Shown here piece by piece: positions 39,255-64,000 of a stretch of 64,000 nt of DNA (position 1 is its first letter; each line of letters starts with the position of its first letter). Origin of the DNA: Candidatus Melainabacteria bacterium (GTDB lineage Bacteria; Cyanobacteriota; Vampirovibrionia; Obscuribacterales; Obscuribacteraceae); contig RXJR01000010.1 in the NCBI GenBank assembly GCA_003963305.1, positions 62,001 through 126,000 on the forward strand, read 5' to 3'. The notes under the pieces are model-generated. The model searched no databases and was not told the DNA's origin. It saw only the letters and a list, made by a program, of their open reading frames with translations. The position numbers and the translations under genes were made by a program.

Positions 39255-42368
<3,114 letters not shown>

Positions 42369-53088: not shown

Positions 53089-53847
53089 ATGAAGTCTCAC
53101 ATCAGGGCTTTCTTCGGCCACCGGGCTGTGCAGGTTGTGACGTTCGTCGTCGCGACCGCGGCTGTGCTCGGTGCGTTCGGAGTCTACGCCAAGGACAACG
53201 GTCTTCTGACCGGCGACAAGACCCCCAGCATCACCTGGCTGACCCGGTCCAATGTCGCAGACGAGCTCAACATCCAGCAGTCCTCCACGGGTGCAGTCAC
53301 GGCCAAGCCTGGGCAGCCCGTGCTCCTGATCGAGTGCCCGACCGAGGCATGCGACTCGTCGACACTCAACATCCCGGCTGTGGTGAAGCAGTTCGGTGAC
53401 CAGGTGAAGATCCTGGCCATCAACCCCTACACCGAGAAGGACCTCGCTGCCGCACTCGAGCAGTCGTTCATCATCCCCGCCGTGCAGAACGCCGTCGTCA
53501 GCACGCTCGCCCAGAGCGTCGCTCAGCAGCAGGCCGGCGCCGATGCCACCATCACCGCGGCCCAGGTGCAGGCGGTGCTCAAGGACTCGTCCTTCCAGAG
53601 CCAGGTGCAGCAGGTGCTCGCCTCGCCCCAGGCATTCGAGCAGGTGGCGCCTTCGCTCTACGCGCTCCTGCAGCCGGTCTACCCGAAGTTCTTCCTCTTC
53701 GATGCCAACTTCCAGCTGCTCAGCGCCGCCACCGGCATCGACGTCACGTCGCAGAGCGACCTGACAAGCTTCGTCCAGAGCGCGCTCACGCCCGCTACCG
53801 CCCCGTCCTCGAGCGACTCCTCCGCTGCCGCCGGCAGCGGGAAGTAA
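53089..53847 (+). CDS. Membrane-anchored thioredoxin-like protein
   Basis: A 252-residue protein with one N-terminal membrane or signal segment (VQVVTFVVATAAVLGAFGVYA, about 14-34) and the rest exposed outside. PGQPVLLIECPTEACDSSTL has a thioredoxin-like start with a CxxxxC pair (CPTEAC), and the C-terminal LQPVYPKFFLFDANFQLL looks like the closing strands. A Gln/Ala-rich helical insert (about 130-200) separates them. ATG 53089 after AAAGGACAATC. It lies 25 bases ahead of the FtsH-like gene, so it may be the exported partner of that protease. Confidence 0.72.
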   Translation: MKSHIRAFFGHRAVQVVTFVVATAAVLGAFGVYAKDNGLLTGDKTPSITWLTRSNVADELNIQQSSTGAVTAKPGQPVLLIECPTEACDSSTLNIPAVVKQFGDQVKILAINPYTEKDLAAALEQSFIIPAVQNAVVSTLAQSVAQQQAGADATITAAQVQAVLKDSSFQSQVQQVLASPQAFEQVAPSLYALLQPVYPKFFLFDANFQLLSAATGIDVTSQSDLTSFVQSALTPATAPSSSDSSAAAGSGK

Positions 53848-53872
53848 CTCCGACACGAATTGAGTTGACACT

Positions 53873-55735
53873 GTGACTATCACAACTCTCGTCATCGCAG
53901 CCATCGCCTTCGTTGCTTTCAACGGGCTGAGCTGCTTCAACACCAAGTTCCGTGACCGGTTCTTCGGCACGCTCTGGCGCACGCGCTACATCTTCGCGTT
54001 CGTGGCCGCCGTCTACTTCCTGCTGCCCGCGATCATCGGTCCGAGTGCCTCGCACTCCATCCTGTCGATGCTGCCTTCGATCATCCTGCAGTTCGTCATG
54101 GCCATCGTCTTCGTCGGCTTCCAGTTCGGCATGATGTTCTGGATGATGGGCAACGCCAACAAGCCCGAGGTCTACCTGCCCGGTGACGCACCGACCAAGG
54201 AGTGGTCCGACTGGATCGGCTCGGAGGGCGTCAAGAAGGAGCTCCAGAAGGCGGTCGAGTCGCTGCGCCGCTGGGAGCTCTACGAGAAGAACGGCACCAA
54301 GCCGCTGAACGGCATGCTCCTCTACGGCCCTCCCGGCACCGGCAAGTCGCTCGCTGCCAAGGTCGTCGCCAGCCAGGCTGGTCTGCCTGTCGTGATCGCG
54401 TCGGCTGCCTCGCTCAACGGTCCGTTCATGGGCATGGGCATGCTGCTCGTGCGCGGGCTGTCGCGCCGCGTCAAGAAGCTGGCTCGCAAGTACGGCGGCT
54501 GCGTCGTCTTCCTCGACGAGATCGACGCCATCGGCGCCACGCGTAGTGGCCTCGGTGGTGGCATGGGTATGCCCATGGGCGGCATGGGTGGTTTCATGGG
54601 CGGTGGCATGGGCGGCAACGGCACGCTCCAGTCGCTGCTCACCGTCATGTCTGGCGCTGAGGGCGGCGAGACCTTCCTGCTCAAGCTGCGCAAGCGCTGG
54701 GGTCTGGCCAAGCGTGACAAGAAGCACACCTGGCGCATCCTCTGGATGGCTGCCACCAACGTCGCGCTCGAGACCCTCGACCCGGCTTTGATCCGCTCCG
54801 GTCGTTTCGGCTCCAAGAAGCTCGCAGTCAACGCCCCCAACGACGACAACCGCCGTGCCCTGTTCAACCTCTACCTGCGCAAGAAGAACGTCGCCGACGA
54901 CCTCGATTTCGACCAGCTCGTGCAGCTCTCGCGCGGCATGACCGGTGCTGACATCGAGGAGGTCTGCGAGGCGGCCATGCGCACGATCATCTTCGAGGGC
55001 AGCGATCGACCGCTGGCCTTCGCCGACATGTTCGCCGAGATCCGCCTGCACAAGAACGGCGTGCCGCGCTCGGTGCCCCTGCACGAGAAGGAGCGCTACC
55101 CGATCGCCGTGCACGAGGCCGGTCACGGTACCGCTGTCGTGCTCTACCCGCCCGCCGGCATGCTCTGCTCCGGCGCGACCCTGACGCCGACCGAGGACTT
55201 CCTCGGTGCAGTCATGTTCGAGCGCGTCGAGGAGCTCTCCCTGATGATGAAGGAGGACTGCTACCGGCGTGTCCTCATCGCCGTCGCCTCGCGTGCGGCC
55301 GAGAAGGTTGTGCTCAACGACGCTTCGGCTGGTGTGTCGAGCGACCTCAACCAGGCCATGAGCATGGCTCTGGCCATGGTCGAGCACTACGGCATGGGTG
55401 ACCGGCTCACCTCGGCTGCCGCCATCGGTGGTGGCCACTCGCCGCGTGCCGTCGAGCAAGCCGAGGACATCGTCAACGCCACCTACGAGGTGGCCGAGCG
55501 CCTTATCGACTCCAACCAGAATGCCGTCAAGGCGCTCGCCGACTCGCTCGTGGCCGAGGTCAACCTGACCGGCCCGCAGGTCATCGACCTGGTCATGCAG
55601 CACGCCCAGATCCCCTTCGAGTCGGTGGCTGCCGAGGTCGAGGGTGTGGTGGCGCGCCTCAAGCAGGAGCGCAAGACCAGGCACCAGTCCACCGACGTCG
55701 CGCCGAAGGCTGGCGACACGTCCGAGGTTTCGTAA
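53873..55735 (+). CDS. Divergent FtsH-like AAA+ M41 protease with Gly/Met-rich insert
   Basis: A 620-residue protein. Three or four membrane segments lie within residues 1-95, more than the two of classical FtsH. The AAA module has GPPGTGKS (152-159), VVFLDEIDAIG (211-221) and ATNVALETLDPALIRSGRF. Directly after Walker B is a 24-residue insert made almost only of Gly and Met (GMGMPMGGMGGFMGG, about 226-249). The M41 domain has HEAGH (414-418) and Asp491 in GVSSDLNQA. The pore loop reads FMG. Catalytic residues are present. GTG start at 53873. It is 8 bases ahead of the MoxR gene, an unusual pairing. Confidence 0.87.
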   Translation: MTITTLVIAAIAFVAFNGLSCFNTKFRDRFFGTLWRTRYIFAFVAAVYFLLPAIIGPSASHSILSMLPSIILQFVMAIVFVGFQFGMMFWMMGNANKPEVYLPGDAPTKEWSDWIGSEGVKKELQKAVESLRRWELYEKNGTKPLNGMLLYGPPGTGKSLAAKVVASQAGLPVVIASAASLNGPFMGMGMLLVRGLSRRVKKLARKYGGCVVFLDEIDAIGATRSGLGGGMGMPMGGMGGFMGGGMGGNGTLQSLLTVMSGAEGGETFLLKLRKRWGLAKRDKKHTWRILWMAATNVALETLDPALIRSGRFGSKKLAVNAPNDDNRRALFNLYLRKKNVADDLDFDQLVQLSRGMTGADIEEVCEAAMRTIIFEGSDRPLAFADMFAEIRLHKNGVPRSVPLHEKERYPIAVHEAGHGTAVVLYPPAGMLCSGATLTPTEDFLGAVMFERVEELSLMMKEDCYRRVLIAVASRAAEKVVLNDASAGVSSDLNQAMSMALAMVEHYGMGDRLTSAAAIGGGHSPRAVEQAEDIVNATYEVAERLIDSNQNAVKALADSLVAEVNLTGPQVIDLVMQHAQIPFESVAAEVEGVVARLKQERKTRHQSTDVAPKAGDTSEVS

Positions 55736-55743
55736 GGAGCAAC

Positions 55744-56751
55744 GTGAATACTCACAAGATTCGCGCGCTCCGCAACGAGCTCGACAAGGTCGTCGCGGGT
55801 TATCCCGACGTGAAGGAGATGATTCTCGTCTGCCTTCTCGCTGACGGTCACGTTCTGCTCGAGGCGGTGCCCGGAACGGCCAAGACCACGCTTGCCAACA
55901 CGCTGCAGGCGGCGATCGAGAACGCTGTTTCGGCGCGCATCCAGATGACCCCTGATCTGAAGCCGACCGACATCGTCGGCGTCGAGATCTTCGACCAGAA
56001 GTCGGGCGAGTTCGTGAAGCGCCCCGGTCCCATGGTGGGCACGCACATCCTGCTCGCCGACGAGATCAACCGCACCACCCCCAAGACGCTCTCTGCCACG
56101 CTGCAGGCGATGCAGGAGCGCAAGGTGACTGTCGGTGATCGCACCTACTCGCTCGAGGACCTCTTCATCATGATCGCCACGATGAACCCGGTCGAGCAGG
56201 AAGGCACCTACCCGGTGCCCGAGGCGACCCTGGACCGCTTCGCCATGAAGCTGAACATGCAGTACGTCTCGCGCGAGGACGAGCTCAAGATGCTGGCCAA
56301 CACGGCTGTGCATGGGCGTTCCGCTCAGTCTGGCGTGGCTCAGGTGATCTCGGTGGAGGAGCTGCTTGCCATGCGCGGCGCCGTCAAGCAGCTCGCTGCT
56401 GCGGCTTCCGTGCCCGTGCTCGGCTACATCGTCGACCTGGCTCGAGCCACCCGCCCGACCGACCAGTGGTTCGACCGTGTGCACGGAGATGACGCTGACG
56501 AGCTGCGCGAGCAGATCGCCTTTGGCGCATCGCCCCGTTGCGAGATCTGGACGCTGCATGCAGCTGCCGCTCTCGCCTTCATCGAGGGCGCCCGCTTCAT
56601 CGAGCCCCGCCACGTGCAGGCGGTTTTCCCGCACGTGGCCAGGCACCGCGTCCTGCTCACCGACGCAGCGGTCTACAACGGTGTCACCACCGATGGTGTG
56701 ATCGCCCGCGTCCTCGAGCGCGTCAAGGTGATCGCCCGCGCCACCAGCTGA
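55744..56751 (+). CDS. MoxR-family AAA+ ATPase
   Basis: A 335-residue MoxR/RavA-type ATPase, a chaperone for metal-cofactor or complex assembly and typical first gene of DUF58/VWA operons. Walker A is AVPGTAKTTLANTL, Walker B HILLADEINRTTPKT, sensor I ATMNPVEQEGTYPVPEATLDRFAMKL. The C-terminal lid is present. GTG start at 55744 after AAGGAGCAAC. It begins 8 bases after the FtsH-like gene and leads the Bat-type genes. Confidence 0.92.
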   Translation: MNTHKIRALRNELDKVVAGYPDVKEMILVCLLADGHVLLEAVPGTAKTTLANTLQAAIENAVSARIQMTPDLKPTDIVGVEIFDQKSGEFVKRPGPMVGTHILLADEINRTTPKTLSATLQAMQERKVTVGDRTYSLEDLFIMIATMNPVEQEGTYPVPEATLDRFAMKLNMQYVSREDELKMLANTAVHGRSAQSGVAQVISVEELLAMRGAVKQLAAAASVPVLGYIVDLARATRPTDQWFDRVHGDDADELREQIAFGASPRCEIWTLHAAAALAFIEGARFIEPRHVQAVFPHVARHRVLLTDAAVYNGVTTDGVIARVLERVKVIARATS

Positions 56752-56789
56752 TCAGGCGACCTCCTACTAAGAAAGCGAGGAGTACTCCT

Positions 56790-57704
56790 ATGAAGCAGGA
56801 GACTCGTGAGGTGATCCAGGCGATCATGAAGCGAGTCGTCACCACTCCGATTCCCGTCCGCTGGCGATCTGCAGAGATCATGCCCACGGGCGGGGATCGG
56901 AGGAGCTTTGCGCGCGGCTCGAACGGACACGACATTCAAGCTCGTGTCGAATACGAGCCCGGAGACGACCCGCGCGATATCGACTGGGCTGCCACTGCGC
57001 AGACCGGAGGTCAGACCATGTACATCACACAGTACATGGAACCGCGCGACCTCAAGGTTTTCATCCTGGCGGATGTGAGTCCGACCATGGATTTCGGCAC
57101 ACACCGCACCACCAAGCGCATCCTCACAGGTGAACTGGTTGGTTCGGTGATCAAGTCTGCCGCCAAGACGCACGACCGCGTCAGATTCCTGGCCTACAAC
57201 GAGCACGACCTCGTCGTCAGCCAGCGCCTGATGCCGGCTCAGACAGCTCTTTTCCCTGCCGTCGCCAGCTTGATCGAAGCAGACGGCAGCCGGGGCGAAG
57301 AGGGCAGCGGCTTGCTGAAAGCGCTGTCGGCACTGCCAAGACAGCGTTCGCTCGTCTTCATCTTCTCCGACTTCCTCAACCTCAACGAGCCCGAGAAGCG
57401 CGCTCTCAAGCGTGCCGCCCTCGCTCACGACATCGTCTGCGTGCTCGTCAACGACCTGCGCGAGCTCGTACTGCCTGACGGCTGGGGACTCTATTCGTTC
57501 AGTGACCTGCGCTCAGGCAGACGCCGTTCAATCTGGCTGACTGAAAAGAGACGCAAGCAATTCGCCGCAAGCAGCCAGAGCCGGAAGGACGAACTCTTCG
57601 CCTTCTTCAAGGAAGCGCATTGCGAAAGCGCCGCCTTCCACACGGCAGAAGGAAGAGAAGCGCTGACTCGCGTCATGCGCCTCTTCGGCGGACACCGCAA
57701 GTAA
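56790..57704 (+). CDS. DUF58 domain protein
   Basis: A 304-residue cytoplasmic protein of the DUF58 family, always found with MoxR. The hallmark YEPGDDPRDIDWAATAQTGGQ is clear, followed by LKVFILADVSPTMDFG, a degenerate VWA-like core. ATG 56790 after GAGGAGTACTCCT; a longer frame upstream overlaps moxR and is not used. It would couple the ATPase to the membrane VWA proteins downstream. Confidence 0.9.
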   Translation: MKQETREVIQAIMKRVVTTPIPVRWRSAEIMPTGGDRRSFARGSNGHDIQARVEYEPGDDPRDIDWAATAQTGGQTMYITQYMEPRDLKVFILADVSPTMDFGTHRTTKRILTGELVGSVIKSAAKTHDRVRFLAYNEHDLVVSQRLMPAQTALFPAVASLIEADGSRGEEGSGLLKALSALPRQRSLVFIFSDFLNLNEPEKRALKRAALAHDIVCVLVNDLRELVLPDGWGLYSFSDLRSGRRRSIWLTEKRRKQFAASSQSRKDELFAFFKEAHCESAAFHTAEGREALTRVMRLFGGHRK

Positions 57705-57805
57705 AGCCAGTTCTGGTGTGAAACTAGTCGTACCGCCTGGTGGGTTGCGCCTGCCGCAGCTCACCAGGTATGGTGCGCGCATCTACAAAACAGAAAGGGG
57801 TTGCA

Positions 57806-58855
57806 ATGTATTTTGCACACCCGGCCTGGCTGCTCTTGCTCCTCAGCATGCCGCTGCCATGGCTCCTCTGGCGTCGCAAGGGGTTCCTCGGTTACTCCGA
57901 CTTGCGACTGCTGGAACACGCGAACAGACCAAGCTTCCTGCACAAGATTCCAGCCGCTCTTCTGGCGCTTTCATTCGTCGCTCTCACGGCTGCACTGGCG
58001 ACGCCCCGGCAGTCGTACATGAAACCGACGGGAAACCAGCTCTCACGCGATGTCATCTTCGGCATCGACATCTCCGGTTCGATGACGGCTGCTTTCGAGG
58101 GCACCATGCCGGCGCCCGACAGTCGCTGTGCAGCCGCCCTCGGACAGGCGCCCTCTAGCGTGCTCAAGGCCTACGCCGAAGACACGCATGCCGACTATCA
58201 GTCGACCACAGGCACCCGCCAGGCTGCGGCTGCTGGTTCGGTTGAGAACTTCATCTGCCAGAGCTATCTGCGCGACTCAGGCGACCGCATCGGGCTTCTG
58301 GAATTCTCCGACTCACCCACCTGGCTGTGGCCGCTCTCAGGCGACCTGAGCATGGTCTTCAGACAGTCGCAGTTCATTCCCTTCGCCTCGGGCAGTGGCA
58401 CCAACTTCGGTGGCTCACCGCCCGGTCCGCTCGATTTCGCCGCCGAGATGTTCAAGCAGATCGGGCAGGCCAAGTCACGCGTCTTCATTCTCGTCACAGA
58501 CGGTGAAGACTACCTCAGCGATGAGGTAAAGGCCCGGCTCGAGAAGTTGATGCGTGATAACGACATTCACTTCTATGTCATCTCGGTGGGCGAAGACCTG
58601 GCACCCAAGGGGCAGCCGGTCAGCGAAGACGCCGACATCGCCCAGATCGCTATCACCACAGGCGGTGCGGTCTTCCAGGCCCAAAACGAGCAGGATCTGA
58701 ATAAGGCTGTACAGACGGTCGATCAGCTGACGCGCTCGCCGGTGCAGGTGGAGACAACCGCTGCGCACAACGAGCTCTTCATGTATTTCGTTTACGCCTT
58801 CCTCGTCCTCTTCGTCCTGGCCCTTTCCGCCCAGGCTATCGTCTTGCGGCGGTGA
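57806..58855 (+). CDS. BatA-like membrane VWA protein
   Basis: A 349-residue protein with the N-terminal aerotolerance-type opening (MYFAHPAWLLLLLSMPLPWL), a second membrane segment at about 50-66, a VWA domain with the MIDAS motif DISGS (88-92) and TDGEDY, and a C-terminal membrane helix. The metal-ion adhesion site is complete. An insert rich in Ala/Ser occurs at about 100-150. ATG 57806 after AAAGGGGTTGCA. It is equivalent to BatA of Bat operons, which support envelope stress tolerance. Confidence 0.88.
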   Translation: MYFAHPAWLLLLLSMPLPWLLWRRKGFLGYSDLRLLEHANRPSFLHKIPAALLALSFVALTAALATPRQSYMKPTGNQLSRDVIFGIDISGSMTAAFEGTMPAPDSRCAAALGQAPSSVLKAYAEDTHADYQSTTGTRQAAAAGSVENFICQSYLRDSGDRIGLLEFSDSPTWLWPLSGDLSMVFRQSQFIPFASGSGTNFGGSPPGPLDFAAEMFKQIGQAKSRVFILVTDGEDYLSDEVKARLEKLMRDNDIHFYVISVGEDLAPKGQPVSEDADIAQIAITTGGAVFQAQNEQDLNKAVQTVDQLTRSPVQVETTAAHNELFMYFVYAFLVLFVLALSAQAIVLRR

Positions 58856-58874
58856 CGCCATGAAAGGATTTGAC

Positions 58875-59498
58875 ATGACCAAACTGATTGCGCTTGCCTA
58901 TCGCTTGCGCATCTGCCTGGCCGCAGTCGCTTTCCTTCTGGCGCTGGGGTTGATCGGGCTGGGTGGCTACCGCTACTTGAGCTGGACCAGCCCGCTGGCA
59001 AACGGCAACTACGGACATGCCGCTGAGAGTCAGGTTGGCGACCAGGCTGTGGCTCTCTACGACCGCGGCTTGAGCGAGTATCGGCAGGCTCTGGCCACAG
59101 ACGACGCCGATGCCGCTCAGACTCTCTGGCAGAACGCCCAGGCAGATCTTTCCGCTGCCTACAATCAGCTCATCGCCGAGGGGAATGGCTCGGTGCCTGA
59201 ATCTTCGCGAAAACTCGCGGCAGACCTGCAGTTCCAGCTCGGCAACATGCTGGTCATAACCGGGCTCGCTCAGCAGAGCGTGGAGCTGATTCAGGCCGGC
59301 GTGCAGAGCTACGAAGAGTGCCTGCGACTCGACCCGGGCAACCTGGCGGCCAGGTACAACATCGAGTTGCTCGAGCAGAGCAACGAAGTGAACAAGCAGA
59401 ACAACCCCGGCGGTCCCGGCAAGCCAGGCGACCAGCCCGGGCAGCCAGGCAAGCAGCCGGGCACAGGCGCCGGTCACAACCACGGCGACGGAACGTAA
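58875..59498 (+). CDS. BatC-like TPR membrane protein
   Basis: A 207-residue protein with an N-terminal membrane segment (CLAAVAFLLALGLIGLGGY), helical repeats with TPR character (VALYDRGLSEYRQALA; QSYEECLRLDPGNLAARYNIELLE) and a Gly/Pro/Gln-rich tail with HNHGDG. ATG 58875 after AAAGGATTTGAC; ATG 58860 five codons earlier is possible. It lies between the two VWA genes, whereas canonical Bat operons place BatC after BatB. Confidence 0.8.
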   Translation: MTKLIALAYRLRICLAAVAFLLALGLIGLGGYRYLSWTSPLANGNYGHAAESQVGDQAVALYDRGLSEYRQALATDDADAAQTLWQNAQADLSAAYNQLIAEGNGSVPESSRKLAADLQFQLGNMLVITGLAQQSVELIQAGVQSYEECLRLDPGNLAARYNIELLEQSNEVNKQNNPGGPGKPGDQPGQPGKQPGTGAGHNHGDGT

Positions 59499-59507
59499 GG
59501 AGGAGAG

Positions 59508-60710
59508 ATGCAGTTCATCAACGCTTCGGCGCTCTGGCTCCTCCTCCTTCTGCTACCGCTTGCGGTGGCGGCGGTGTGGTTGGGAGCGCGGCGTCAGGCA
59601 AGCTTCAACGCCCGCTTCGGCGAGACCAGGCTGGTCTCGCGCTTCTCGCAGCTGCACAGCTCCAGGCAGAGTCTTCTCAAGGGCGCTTGCGTGGCACTGG
59701 CTGTCTCAGCGGCTATCGTCGCCCTGGCGCGACCGACCTTGAACGACTCGGATGTGACAGTGCCCGCCGGCACCGTCGATGTCGTCAGCGTCATCGACGT
59801 CAGTCGCAGCATGGCGATTGAGAGCTATGCGGGCAAGACCGGCAGTACTGCCGGCACGCGCCTGGACATGGCTCGCACTATCGTGAAAGAAAAGCTCATG
59901 CCAGCGCTGGGCGCCAACAAGCTGAGCCTGGTCTCCTACTCAGGCACCGCAGTTACGCAGGGCTTCCTCACAAGCGACATGAATGCGCTCACCTGGGTGC
60001 TGAACAACGCCGTCACCATAGGCGGTGCGCCAGGCGACGGCACCAACATGACGACCGGTCTCGTCAACGCCATCGAAGAGCTGGCTGTCGACTCGCCTGC
60101 CGACCACGCCCGCGTAATAGTGCTTTTCACCGACGGCGACTTTTATGACAGCGCCGCCGACATCGAACGGGTCACAGCAGCGCTCAAGCAGCATCACATT
60201 CAGCTCGTCATCGTCGGGCTGGGCAGTGCTGAGGCGCAGCCCATTCCCGTCGATCAACTGGCGCCGCAAGACAGATCACAGTTCTACGGTCAGAAGTACT
60301 TCAAGAACGCAGCTGGTGAAGTGGAGCGCATCCCCTTCAACTTCCAGAACGTGATCAACCTCAAGAACCAGGCCGGCGCTCGCTTCATTCGCATCGAAAA
60401 CGCCTCTGACTTCGACATCGCAAGCCTCTTCACGGGCAGCGCTGTCACTCACAAGAAGGGCACACACGAGCTCTTCTTCGTGCCACTGCTTCTGGCGCTG
60501 CTTTGCTTCGGACTGCATCTGCTGTCGGAGCACGAGCGACCGTCCAACTGGCGCGAAAGCATCGTAAGCCGATGGAACGAGTCGCGCAATACGATGCGTC
60601 GGCGGAGTCGTCGAGGTGACAAGAAGCACTCGGGACGAGTGCGCTCCATGAGAGTGCTTTCGGTACTCCGCTTCATTCCGCGCAGGCGCTCCAAAGGAGG
60701 TGAGCGATGA
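59508..60710 (+). CDS. BatB-like membrane VWA protein
   Basis: A 400-residue protein with two N-terminal hydrophobic segments (LLLLLLPLAVAAVWLG; VALAVSAAIVALA), a VWA domain with MIDAS DVSRS (97-101) and FTDGDFYDS, a C-terminal membrane helix at about 322-340 and a basic cytosolic tail (RRRSRRGDKKHSGR). ATG 59508 follows AAGGAGGAGAG. Its stop overlaps the next gene start by four bases. It is the second VWA subunit of the membrane complex. Confidence 0.87.
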   Translation: MQFINASALWLLLLLLPLAVAAVWLGARRQASFNARFGETRLVSRFSQLHSSRQSLLKGACVALAVSAAIVALARPTLNDSDVTVPAGTVDVVSVIDVSRSMAIESYAGKTGSTAGTRLDMARTIVKEKLMPALGANKLSLVSYSGTAVTQGFLTSDMNALTWVLNNAVTIGGAPGDGTNMTTGLVNAIEELAVDSPADHARVIVLFTDGDFYDSAADIERVTAALKQHHIQLVIVGLGSAEAQPIPVDQLAPQDRSQFYGQKYFKNAAGEVERIPFNFQNVINLKNQAGARFIRIENASDFDIASLFTGSAVTHKKGTHELFFVPLLLALLCFGLHLLSEHERPSNWRESIVSRWNESRNTMRRRSRRGDKKHSGRVRSMRVLSVLRFIPRRRSKGGER

Positions 60711-61792
60711 GGAAGTACATTCCGCACCTGACCGCTCTGCTCGCCTTCCTGGTGGGTACGGCGGTCGTGCTTGCCATCGTCAGCGGTGGCAAGAGCTTCG
60801 ACTCCCCGCACTTCAGGGACAGTACCTCACCCCAGGCAGTGGTCCAACTGGAGCGCGATTACGCCTACCGCACGGGCGACCAGATCACCTTCACAGTCTT
60901 CGTCGACCAGCCCAGCGGCACCGAAGTGGATGGTTCGAGCTTTGCCGTCACCGACACCAATGAAGGTGACATGGAGTTCAGCTCGCAACTGCTGGGCAGC
61001 AAAACTGGTGCAGGCGACAGCATGGTGCTGGCGGTGCAAGTGACGCTGCGCAAGTGGAGTTACGAGCAGACCTTCACGGTCAAAGCGACGATGAGCTACA
61101 TCGTCTCATCGACCGGTGACACAGAGGCGCTTCAGGTGCCCGACATCACCCTGCACATGTCGCCCACCTGGGATGGTCGCAAGACACTCAATCAGGGTGA
61201 CAATCGGTTGCGGCAAGACGAGAAGGCGTATCTCAACATCATCCTCATCGCGGTAGGTCTCTTCACCAGCATCTGCATGGTGCTTTTCATGCGGGCGGCA
61301 CGACGCAAGAACAGTCGTATACGGGCCAGCCGGCCTCGTGTGCCGACAGCGCTCGAGTCTGCGCGTAATGGCTTCGAGCTGAGGCGCGATCTGATTCTTG
61401 GTCGTGACTATCGGCTCGAGCATTATGAGGAACTCGAGCGCATCGTGCGAGGACTCTTCCAGATCGAGACCGTGACCACCGACCGGGTGGCAGCGGAGCT
61501 CCCCGCTCCTCACCGATGGGCGCAAGACCATGTGCTCACCGTTCTCACCCACTGCGACAAGCGCCTCTATCAGGATCTCAGTCTGACAGAACTCGAACAC
61601 GCCGGTCTGTTCAGCGCCTTCGAGCAGCTGCTTACCGAGATGCCTCTTCACGAGATGGCACCGCCGCCTCGCATCACCCGGTGGACGCCAATCACCACAC
61701 GCCTGAAGCGACTGCCGCACAGGAAGCTGACCTTCCTCGCAGTGGGCGCAAAGTGGCTGTGGCGACACCGTCCTTTCCGCTACTACGTGTAG
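60707..61792 (+). CDS. BatD-like membrane protein
   Basis: A 361-residue protein: N-terminal membrane anchor (TALLAFLVGTAVVLAIVSG), an exposed beta-rich domain with immunoglobulin-like strands (QITFTVFVDQPSG, FTVKATMSYIV), a second membrane helix (about 177-196) and a cytosolic helical C-terminus (ALESARNGFELRRDLI). The topology fits the BatD position in the operon, although sequence identity to BatD cannot be claimed. The start has a consensus AAAGGAGGTGAGCG site and an ATGA overlap with the preceding stop. Confidence 0.78.
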   Translation: MRKYIPHLTALLAFLVGTAVVLAIVSGGKSFDSPHFRDSTSPQAVVQLERDYAYRTGDQITFTVFVDQPSGTEVDGSSFAVTDTNEGDMEFSSQLLGSKTGAGDSMVLAVQVTLRKWSYEQTFTVKATMSYIVSSTGDTEALQVPDITLHMSPTWDGRKTLNQGDNRLRQDEKAYLNIILIAVGLFTSICMVLFMRAARRKNSRIRASRPRVPTALESARNGFELRRDLILGRDYRLEHYEELERIVRGLFQIETVTTDRVAAELPAPHRWAQDHVLTVLTHCDKRLYQDLSLTELEHAGLFSAFEQLLTEMPLHEMAPPPRITRWTPITTRLKRLPHRKLTFLAVGAKWLWRHRPFRYYV

Positions 61793-61911: not shown

Positions 61912-62622
61912 TTGCGCGACGACATGACCAAGATCTTCCACGAGCCCGGTCGCAACGGGGGCGGGGGCAACCGCAACGGCAAGCGCCACCAGCGCGCCAT
62001 CGCCGACGGTGTCACCTTCGAGCCCATGCGCCGCGACCGCGACCGCGCCCGCCACTCGGCGTACGCGCCGCTGCGCCAGTACCTGATCAAGCAGGTGGGG
62101 CGCCCGTGGAACGAGGTCTTCTCGGACATCTCGCACAACACCCGCAGCAAGAGCCTCACCGCCCAGGAGGTGCGCGAGGCCATGGTCGGCATGGTCGAGA
62201 CGACCGTGCAGCTCATCGACGGACAGCCGCACGACGAGCGCGGCCGCCCGATCACGAGCAACTTCTGGTCGCCCGTCTGGGTGCACCCGGAGACCGGCAT
62301 CCTGCTGCGCGCCCCGCAGCAGCCCAGGCGGCGCTACAGCCGCAAGCCCAGCTTCGAGCAGATCGACATCGACGCGAACAGCAAGCTCGTCAAGTTGAAC
62401 GACCTCTGGTTCGTGGTCAACTTCGCGCCCCTCCCCGCGGTGCTCAACCCCGACGAGCCCGAGCGCGACATCGTGCTCAACGTGCCGGCCTGCCAGGGCT
62501 ACATGGGCTACCGCAACACGGGCGGCAACTTCCGCCGCGAGTGGGGCGGCAACGTCTACGCCGTCTCCAAGCGGGCCGCGAGCAAGAAGGAGATCAAGAA
62601 GCTGGTCAAGACGGGCAGCTAG
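61912..62622 (+). CDS. Hypothetical protein (236 aa)
   Basis: A basic soluble protein beginning MRDDMTKIFHEPGRNGGGG at the TTG at 61912, preceded by AAAGGAGTCACA. It contains PLRQYLIKQVGRPWNEVFSDI, a block I associate with short hypothetical proteins of several environmental phyla (recall only), then SNFWSPVWVHPETGILLRAP and a Lys-rich end. No catalytic motif. It lies 119 bases after the Bat genes and has its own terminator. Confidence 0.68.
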   Translation: MRDDMTKIFHEPGRNGGGGNRNGKRHQRAIADGVTFEPMRRDRDRARHSAYAPLRQYLIKQVGRPWNEVFSDISHNTRSKSLTAQEVREAMVGMVETTVQLIDGQPHDERGRPITSNFWSPVWVHPETGILLRAPQQPRRRYSRKPSFEQIDIDANSKLVKLNDLWFVVNFAPLPAVLNPDEPERDIVLNVPACQGYMGYRNTGGNFRREWGGNVYAVSKRAASKKEIKKLVKTGS

Positions 62623-62673: not shown

Positions 62674-62841
62674 CGCCCTATTAGCTCTGTAAACGTGACA
62701 CGCCTTCCTTTTGGATCGAATCGTCTCGCGATTTTGCGTTCGGCAGTGACGCCGCAATCGATCCGATTTTCAAAAGCATTTTTCATCACCTCATTACCGA
62801 TGGCAGGCGATAAGCAAGTCATCCTGACGAAAAGAGTAATT

Positions 62842-64000
62842 GTGAACACCACACACGGTATCAACCCCGAGTTCATGGATCTGCAAGCAGATCCCGGCAA
62901 GGACTTCTTCCGCTACGCCAACGGCGCCTACGTCGACCAGGCTGTGCTGCCGGCCGGCTACTCGCGCTGGGGCACATTCCTCGAGCTGCGTGAGCTGTCG
63001 CTCGACCGTCTGCACACGATGATGGTCGAGGCCAGCCAGGGCACGCAGCAGCCCGGCTCGATCGAGCAGAAGATGGGCGACTTCTTCGCGGCCGGCATGG
63101 ATGTCGACGCGATCGAGGCGCAGGGCGCTTCGCCTCTCGCTGGCGAGTTCGCCGCCATCGCCCGCGTGCGCACCCGGCGCGGACTGGCCAGGTGCGTGGC
63201 TCGCCTGCACGGGCTCGGCGTCGGACCCCTCTTCGGCTTCGGTGCCATGCAGTCATTCAGCGACAGCTCGCAGATGGTCGCCTCGATCGGTCAGGGCGGC
63301 ACCAGCATGGGCGGTCGCGACTACTACGTCGACACCGACGATGCCAGCATCGAGAAGCGCCGGCTCTACGTGCAGCACATCAGCAAGATGCTGCAGCTCC
63401 TCGGTCAGAGCACCCGCACCGCAGATCGCGATGCGCGCAGCATCATGGCCGTCGAGACCGCGCTCGCCTTCGCACAGATGGAAGAGGAGGAGATGCGTGA
63501 CCCCAAGAACATCGACCACGTCATGTCGGTCGCTGAGTTGCGGGCACTGACGCCTTCCTTCGATTTCCGCGCCTACTTCCGCGCCATCGGTGCGCCCGAC
63601 TTCAAGACGCTCAACGTCCTGCAGCCGGACTTCTTCAAGGCACTCGAGAAGGTGCTGAGCAAGACATCGCTGCGCACCATGCGCGCCTACCTGCGCTGGA
63701 AGCTGATCAACAGCACCGCCGGCTACCTGTCGGCTGACTTCGTCAACGAGCGCTTCGCCTTCTTCGGCGTCGTCATGAGCGGACTGACGGAGCAGCAGCC
63801 GCGTTACAAGCGGGTCGTCAACCTCGTCGACAGCTGCCTGGGCGAGGCCATCGGTCAGCTCTACGTGGAGCGCTTCTTCCCGCCCGAGGCCAAGACGCGC
63901 GTGCTCGAGATGATCGAGGACGGCAAGCTGGAGATGCGCGCCGCCCTCGAGAAGGCTGACTGGCTGTCGGACGAGACGCGCAGCAACCTGCTCGCCAAGA
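62842..64000 (+). CDS. M13 (neprilysin/PepO) family metallopeptidase, N-terminal part
   Basis: Open to the window end, 386 codons. GTG start at 62842 (MNTTHGINPEFMDLQADPGK). The opening DPGKDFFRYANGAY, YSRWGTFLELRELS and GVGPLFGFGAMQ match the helical N-terminal lobe of M13 peptidases (D..DF..YvNG.W..). The HExxH zinc motif lies beyond the window. There is no signal peptide or membrane anchor, as in the cytosolic PepO type. The gene begins 219 bases after the 61912 gene and keeps the same G/C-ending codon style. Confidence 0.87.
   Translation, partial: MNTTHGINPEFMDLQADPGKDFFRYANGAYVDQAVLPAGYSRWGTFLELRELSLDRLHTMMVEASQGTQQPGSIEQKMGDFFAAGMDVDAIEAQGASPLAGEFAAIARVRTRRGLARCVARLHGLGVGPLFGFGAMQSFSDSSQMVASIGQGGTSMGGRDYYVDTDDASIEKRRLYVQHISKMLQLLGQSTRTADRDARSIMAVETALAFAQMEEEEMRDPKNIDHVMSVAELRALTPSFDFRAYFRAIGAPDFKTLNVLQPDFFKALEKVLSKTSLRTMRAYLRWKLINSTAGYLSADFVNERFAFFGVVMSGLTEQQPRYKRVVNLVDSCLGEAIGQLYVERFFPPEAKTRVLEMIEDGKLEMRAALEKADWLSDETRSNLLAK

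Follow-up and report, generated by a model that had tools for sequence, protein, structure and literature searches.

Why is a membrane-bound AAA+ protease, accompanied by a thioredoxin-like protein, encoded at the head of a MoxR/Bat operon, and does it work together with the products of that operon? The locus that raises this question comes from a relative of the cyanobacteria and lies within a stretch of 64,000 nucleotides (hereafter the window), which corresponds to C10:62001-126000 of a 7.48 Mb assembly in 44 contigs. At positions 53089-61792, eight genes on the forward strand (g1 to g8) follow one another with gaps of 25, 8, 38, 101, 19, 9 and -4 nt. All the open reading frames announced by an earlier sequence-only reading are present, and their spacing is as tight as it had described, with intergenic distances of 8-38 nt from g1 to g4. 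Promoter and terminator scans gave signals at chance level, and Rfam and tRNA searches of the window returned no match. The reading that we favour, with a probability of about 45%, is that g1 and g2 form a two-gene module coupled to the MoxR-DUF58-VWA (Bat) remodelling complex, to which they would add a degrading arm.

The Bat-type part of the locus comprises MoxR, DUF58, VWA, TPR, VWA and BatD-like genes in one row. The product of g3 (55744..56751, +) is a MoxR AAA+ ATPase (AAA_3, E 3e-50) that scores 48.7 bits against the Pfam bpMoxR model, whose cut-off is 27, and g4 (56790..57704, +) encodes a DUF58 protein (E 3e-31) without a TM segment. Two membrane VWA proteins are encoded by g5 (57806..58855, +; BatA/B-like) and g7 (59508..60710, +); both match Pfam VWA, both retain an intact MIDAS start (DISGS and DVSRS, respectively) and both carry TM segments. 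The g7 protein, with a BatA-type N terminus, falls just below the BatA cut-off, and its three TM segments give it the same layout as the Borrelia BatA-type VWA protein, for which three TM helices and a VWA domain in the periplasm have been shown (PMC5700661). Between them lies g6 (58875..59498, +), which encodes a membrane-anchored, BatC-like TPR protein; the NCBIfam Leptospira models for BatA, BatB and BatC match g5, g7 and g6, all below cut-off. The last gene, g8 (60707..61792, +; two TM segments), has no family match of its own in Pfam or NCBIfam; its name, BatD-like, reflects a match to the gene in fourth place in the vwa-tpr-vwa-X operons of relatives. About 120 nt 3' of g8, a 236-aa protein (61912-62622, +) has no Pfam, NCBIfam or PADLOC match and is absent beside the other Bat operons examined. 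It is followed by a gene for an M13-family metallopeptidase (62800-64000, +), which runs off the window and whose closest same-genus matches are only 40-43% identical.

The protease is encoded by g2 (53873..55735, +). It matches the Pfam families AAA (PF00004, E 6e-21) and M41 (PF01434, E 3e-20), and carries a Walker A motif (GPPGTGKS), a Walker B motif (DEID), an SRH of the form ATN...R.GRF with both arginines, an F-x-G pore loop, and the zinc-protease motif HEAGH at residue 414 with an aligned third zinc ligand, D491. Judged by sequence, the catalytic motifs are intact in the protease and in both ATPases (g2 and g3), and all AAA and M41 motifs of g2 are also kept in its ortholog described below. 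The protein scores 213 bits against the NCBIfam FtsH equivalog, below the cut-off of 600, and is about 30% identical to the canonical FtsHs of its own genome (the C38 and C23 copies). With these it shares the AAA+ and M41 domains, all the motifs and an N-terminal membrane anchor; the differences lie in its membrane region and in two inserts. Three strong hydrophobic segments with short links are packed into residues 1-95, where the same calculation gives one or two in the paralogs, in line with the earlier remark that the protein has more membrane segments than FtsH. Since this arrangement differs from the canonical two TM segments around a periplasmic domain, and lacks the room for such a domain, we describe g2 as FtsH-type and not as canonical FtsH. 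The Gly/Met-only insert reported next to Walker B (54544..54625, +) is indeed longer than in other FtsHs (27-28 residues versus 15-16), but it is an enlarged form of a normal FtsH loop, Gly/Met-rich and not purely Gly/Met. Ahead of the SRH strand, a further insert adds about 20 residues. All FtsH matches on plasmids are below 60% identity, the best ten lying at 26-31% and being mostly annotated as FtsH. AlphaFold2 models of g1 and g2, built from two-row alignments, reached a mean pLDDT of 40.5 and 37.8, respectively, values too low for fold searches or for judging how the proteins fit together.

The protease had been counted as a second FtsH, a label that is valid for the window only, because the genome contains ten M41 loci in 7.5 Mb. 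The genome that carries the g2 ortholog has the same number, against one or two in smaller relatives within the class. The other FtsH of the window (39255-42368, -) is a distinct 1,037-aa protein in which an M41 domain (HEGGH) accompanies two AAA domains, each carrying Walker A/B and SRH motifs. Elsewhere in the same genome (C2, L046:3453-6866) and in a relative (G023, L043:5770-9117), FtsH-type proteins of about 1,120-1,140 aa combine three AAA domains with one M41 domain. This triple-AAA form looks like a family trait, since most of the family's genomes examined have M41 loci whose open frames run to about 1,100-1,180 aa.

The partner gene, g1 (53089..53847, +), encodes a protein with a single N-terminal TM segment followed by an extracytoplasmic domain. 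On its own this protein has no direct Pfam match, a profile search of solved structures found no match for it, and a profile-profile comparison with local thioredoxins gave a probability of 8.9%. A profile built from g1 and its counterpart beside the g2 ortholog, used in a family-wide search, nevertheless reached a protein in another genome of the family (E 2e-5) that is a clear thioredoxin (PF00085, E 9.5e-13). Because the profile reaches a genuine thioredoxin, the earlier description of g1 as membrane-anchored and thioredoxin-like holds as regards the likely fold, without the CXXC motif. In its place g1 has C-x4-C (C83, C88) and the counterpart C-x6-C; both cysteines of g1 are conserved in the counterpart, and only the second aligns with the second CXXC cysteine. 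These sequence features caution against assuming a classical dithiol oxidoreductase activity. The equivalence of g1 and its counterpart rests on position, size, the TM segment and an alignment with 27% identity, as neither protein finds the other by BLAST.

One line of evidence for a functional connection comes from the distribution of the protease. Among the 49 other genomes of the family, a single one (Centralia_MAG_505, G009), which belongs to another genus, encodes an ortholog of g2, at 53-54% identity. A phylum sample of 386 genomes contained no further ortholog, and a pattern scan covering 84,980 species genomes returned the same contig, JAJPJO010000476.1, plus one distant match at 29%. 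In both same-genus genomes the protease is absent, and so is the operon. On the G009 contig (whose record is titled Proteobacteria MAG, and which groups with the family of the window), the gene order on the minus strand is VWA, a 365-aa protein, VWA, a 339-aa protein, a 274-aa protein, MoxR, DUF58, thioredoxin-like protein and protease. As in the window, the orthologous g1-g2 pair lies beside MoxR, DUF58 and two VWA genes, the g1 counterpart ending 30 nt before the protease. The surroundings differ in other respects: the pair stands at the 3' end of the operon and not at its head, both VWAs have a degenerate MIDAS, and the MoxR, DUF58 and VWA proteins are in a different order and only 24-30% identical to those of the window, compared with 54% for the proteases. 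A single transcript is less certain in G009, given the 203 nt that separate DUF58 from the g1 counterpart. In the same genome, two very different Bat operons adjoin on one 32-kb contig (C396, L070/L071); the second, FtsH-linked one is followed by a gene for a leucine-rich-repeat protein.

We combined M41 positions with MoxR positions across 21 genomes and found a MoxR gene within 10 kb for 2 of the 71 M41 loci, namely that of the window and its G009 ortholog, compared with none of the 69 others (P = 1/2485, about 4e-4, with no correction for the orthology of the two or for short contigs). These two examples both come from metagenome-type assemblies, and the proteases are related by descent, so they are not fully independent. 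Separation of the protease from the Bat genes in most relatives, which the sequence-only reading had named as evidence against itself, is not what we found: the subfamily is very rare and is linked in both of its two cases. Since the only close relative of the protease lies beside another, separate copy of this type of complex, the pairing of the protease and its partner with the MoxR/Bat genes is probably functional and not accidental.

Codon usage provides a second line of evidence, independent of the neighbourhood though indirect. In none of the five Bat-operon contigs examined does any other gene of the operon have a lower rare-codon fraction than MoxR (0.009-0.025), whatever the place of MoxR in it. 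The values for g1, g2 and both counterparts are MoxR-like (0.016-0.040), compared with about 0.03-0.11 for most other Bat genes and 0.11-0.175 for the canonical FtsHs of the genome. This low fraction, common to the pair and MoxR, suggests that the protease pair may be made in amounts comparable to MoxR.

According to our favoured reading, the VWA, TPR and BatD-like proteins would hold clients at the outer face of the inner membrane, and MoxR with DUF58, working from the cytosolic face, would remodel the complex or its clients; both ideas are in keeping with what has been published on MoxR/VWA systems. As is established for their families, the AAA/protease part of g2, like MoxR and DUF58, is presumably on the cytosolic side. 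A membrane AAA+/M41 hexamer of g2, without the usual periplasmic domain, would then extract and degrade failing clients, and g1 would serve as its extracytoplasmic partner, helping or redox-gating it. We infer one transcript, a physical complex, a hand-over of clients, a direction of substrate flow and a redox role for g1. Tight spacing, the linkage of the ortholog to a different MoxR/Bat operon and the shared codon bias lend support to the earlier proposal of a functional link among protease, partner, MoxR and Bat genes, and its combination of an unfolding MoxR with a degrading arm in envelope quality control is a plausible predicted mechanism. A more ambitious version, in which a portable g1-g2 module joins different MoxR/VWA complexes to build an inner-membrane remodel-or-destroy machine, in which one AAA+ ring would unfold or assemble the clients and a second would degrade them, seems to us somewhat unlikely.

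A somewhat unlikely alternative is that the protease acts on the machine itself. FtsH degrades several regulators to set their amount, and the substrates of FtsH-type proteases are often few and specific; g2 might likewise degrade a component such as MoxR, DUF58 or the BatD-like protein to set its level, the thioredoxin-like protein being a sensor. The placement of g2 in the same operon as MoxR, with the same codon bias, would fit this explanation, as would the report that in Riemerella the level of MoxR itself controls the bat operon (PMC11834572). What it leaves unexplained is the retention of the pair beside two very different Bat operons, unless a shared substrate has been conserved.

The history of the operon bears on another alternative. 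The g3 and g4 proteins are 68-70% and 59% identical, respectively, to those of a paralogous operon that the same genome carries on C8, and the best matches of g5 to g8 are the MoxR-less vwa-tpr-vwa-batD operons of relatives, with which g5 and g7 group in trees at 100/100 and 100/99. From these matches, together with the protease pair, the operon of the window appears to have been put together from three sources. In MoxR and VWA trees the FtsH-linked operon of G009 has very long branches, and no deep placement is supported. The MoxR-less operon of relatives adjoins acetyltransferase-like and histone-deacetylase-like genes, whose homologs here are on the same contig as g5, about 62-66 kb upstream of it; the genome of the window thus keeps the flanking genes of this neighbourhood, with the operon located elsewhere on the contig. 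Some of these relatives also encode, a few kb further along, an M50 protease and an FtsH that is of canonical type and different from g2, and a canonical-type FtsH, M50 (RseP-like), histone-deacetylase-like and acetyltransferase-like genes and MoxR-less vwa-tpr-vwa-batD recur together (L116, L117, L119, L118+L081).

This clear composite origin, with g3/g4 of the C8 type and g5-g8 of the MoxR-less type, would agree with a recent assembly by rearrangement in which g1 and g2 came along without shared function, as would the absence of the operon from same-genus genomes and the number of such loci in the genome (ten M41 loci and several MoxR loci). We consider such a chance merger unlikely, because the ortholog in another genus also stands beside a MoxR/VWA operon, none of the other 69 M41 loci does so within 10 kb, and g1 and g2 share the codon bias of MoxR. 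Very improbable is the view that the locus is a defence system of the published MoxR-vWA ternary conflict class (PMC7159879), with FtsH as a third component releasing an effector: although g3 exceeds the bpMoxR cut-off and the VWAs of the G009 copy show the loss of MIDAS residues that has been reported for the class, membership is rejected on the absence of the defining tandem-AAA protein, the VWAs of the window are membrane Bat types with intact MIDAS, PADLOC matches g2 only as a generic AAA protein, none of the eight genes was seen to be an effector, ubiquitin-like, JAB or caspase-like gene, and Pfam, PADLOC and NCBIfam give no match to linked effector or ubiquitin-like conjugation genes in g1-g8 or g9.

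We return to the proposed functional module, and regard the locus as a new and rare form of MoxR/Bat operon. The added membrane AAA+ protease and thioredoxin-like partner point to inner-membrane protein quality control or assembly, and the variant offers a practical route to the clients of MoxR/Bat complexes; a role of MoxR/Bat in oxidative stress has been proposed, which Leptospira biflexa did not confirm (PMC3557215). The literature covered, with most subscription papers outside its scope and priority therefore not proven, contained only protease-less Bat operons and one FtsH-MoxR-vWA system of another architecture. Hence the earlier impression that a protease-led Bat operon is unfamiliar stands as far as Bat operons are concerned, but the three-part combination does have some precedent. 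In the ternary conflict systems (Kaur et al. 2020, PMC7159879), MoxR, VWA and an FtsH-type AAA protein are likewise encoded together; their FtsH has two AAA domains, the first of them dead, and is associated with conflict effectors or ubiquitin-like conjugation, whereas g2 has one active AAA domain with M41 and belongs to a membrane Bat operon. The Bat (Bacteroides aerotolerance) MoxR operons of Bacteroidetes, spirochaetes and Francisella carry MoxR, DUF58, two membrane VWA, TPR and BatD-like genes in one row, as here (PMC11834572, PMC3557215, PMC5700661). No FtsH-type protease or thioredoxin-like leader is described for them, whereas the order in the window is protease pair, MoxR, DUF58, VWA, TPR, VWA and BatD-like.
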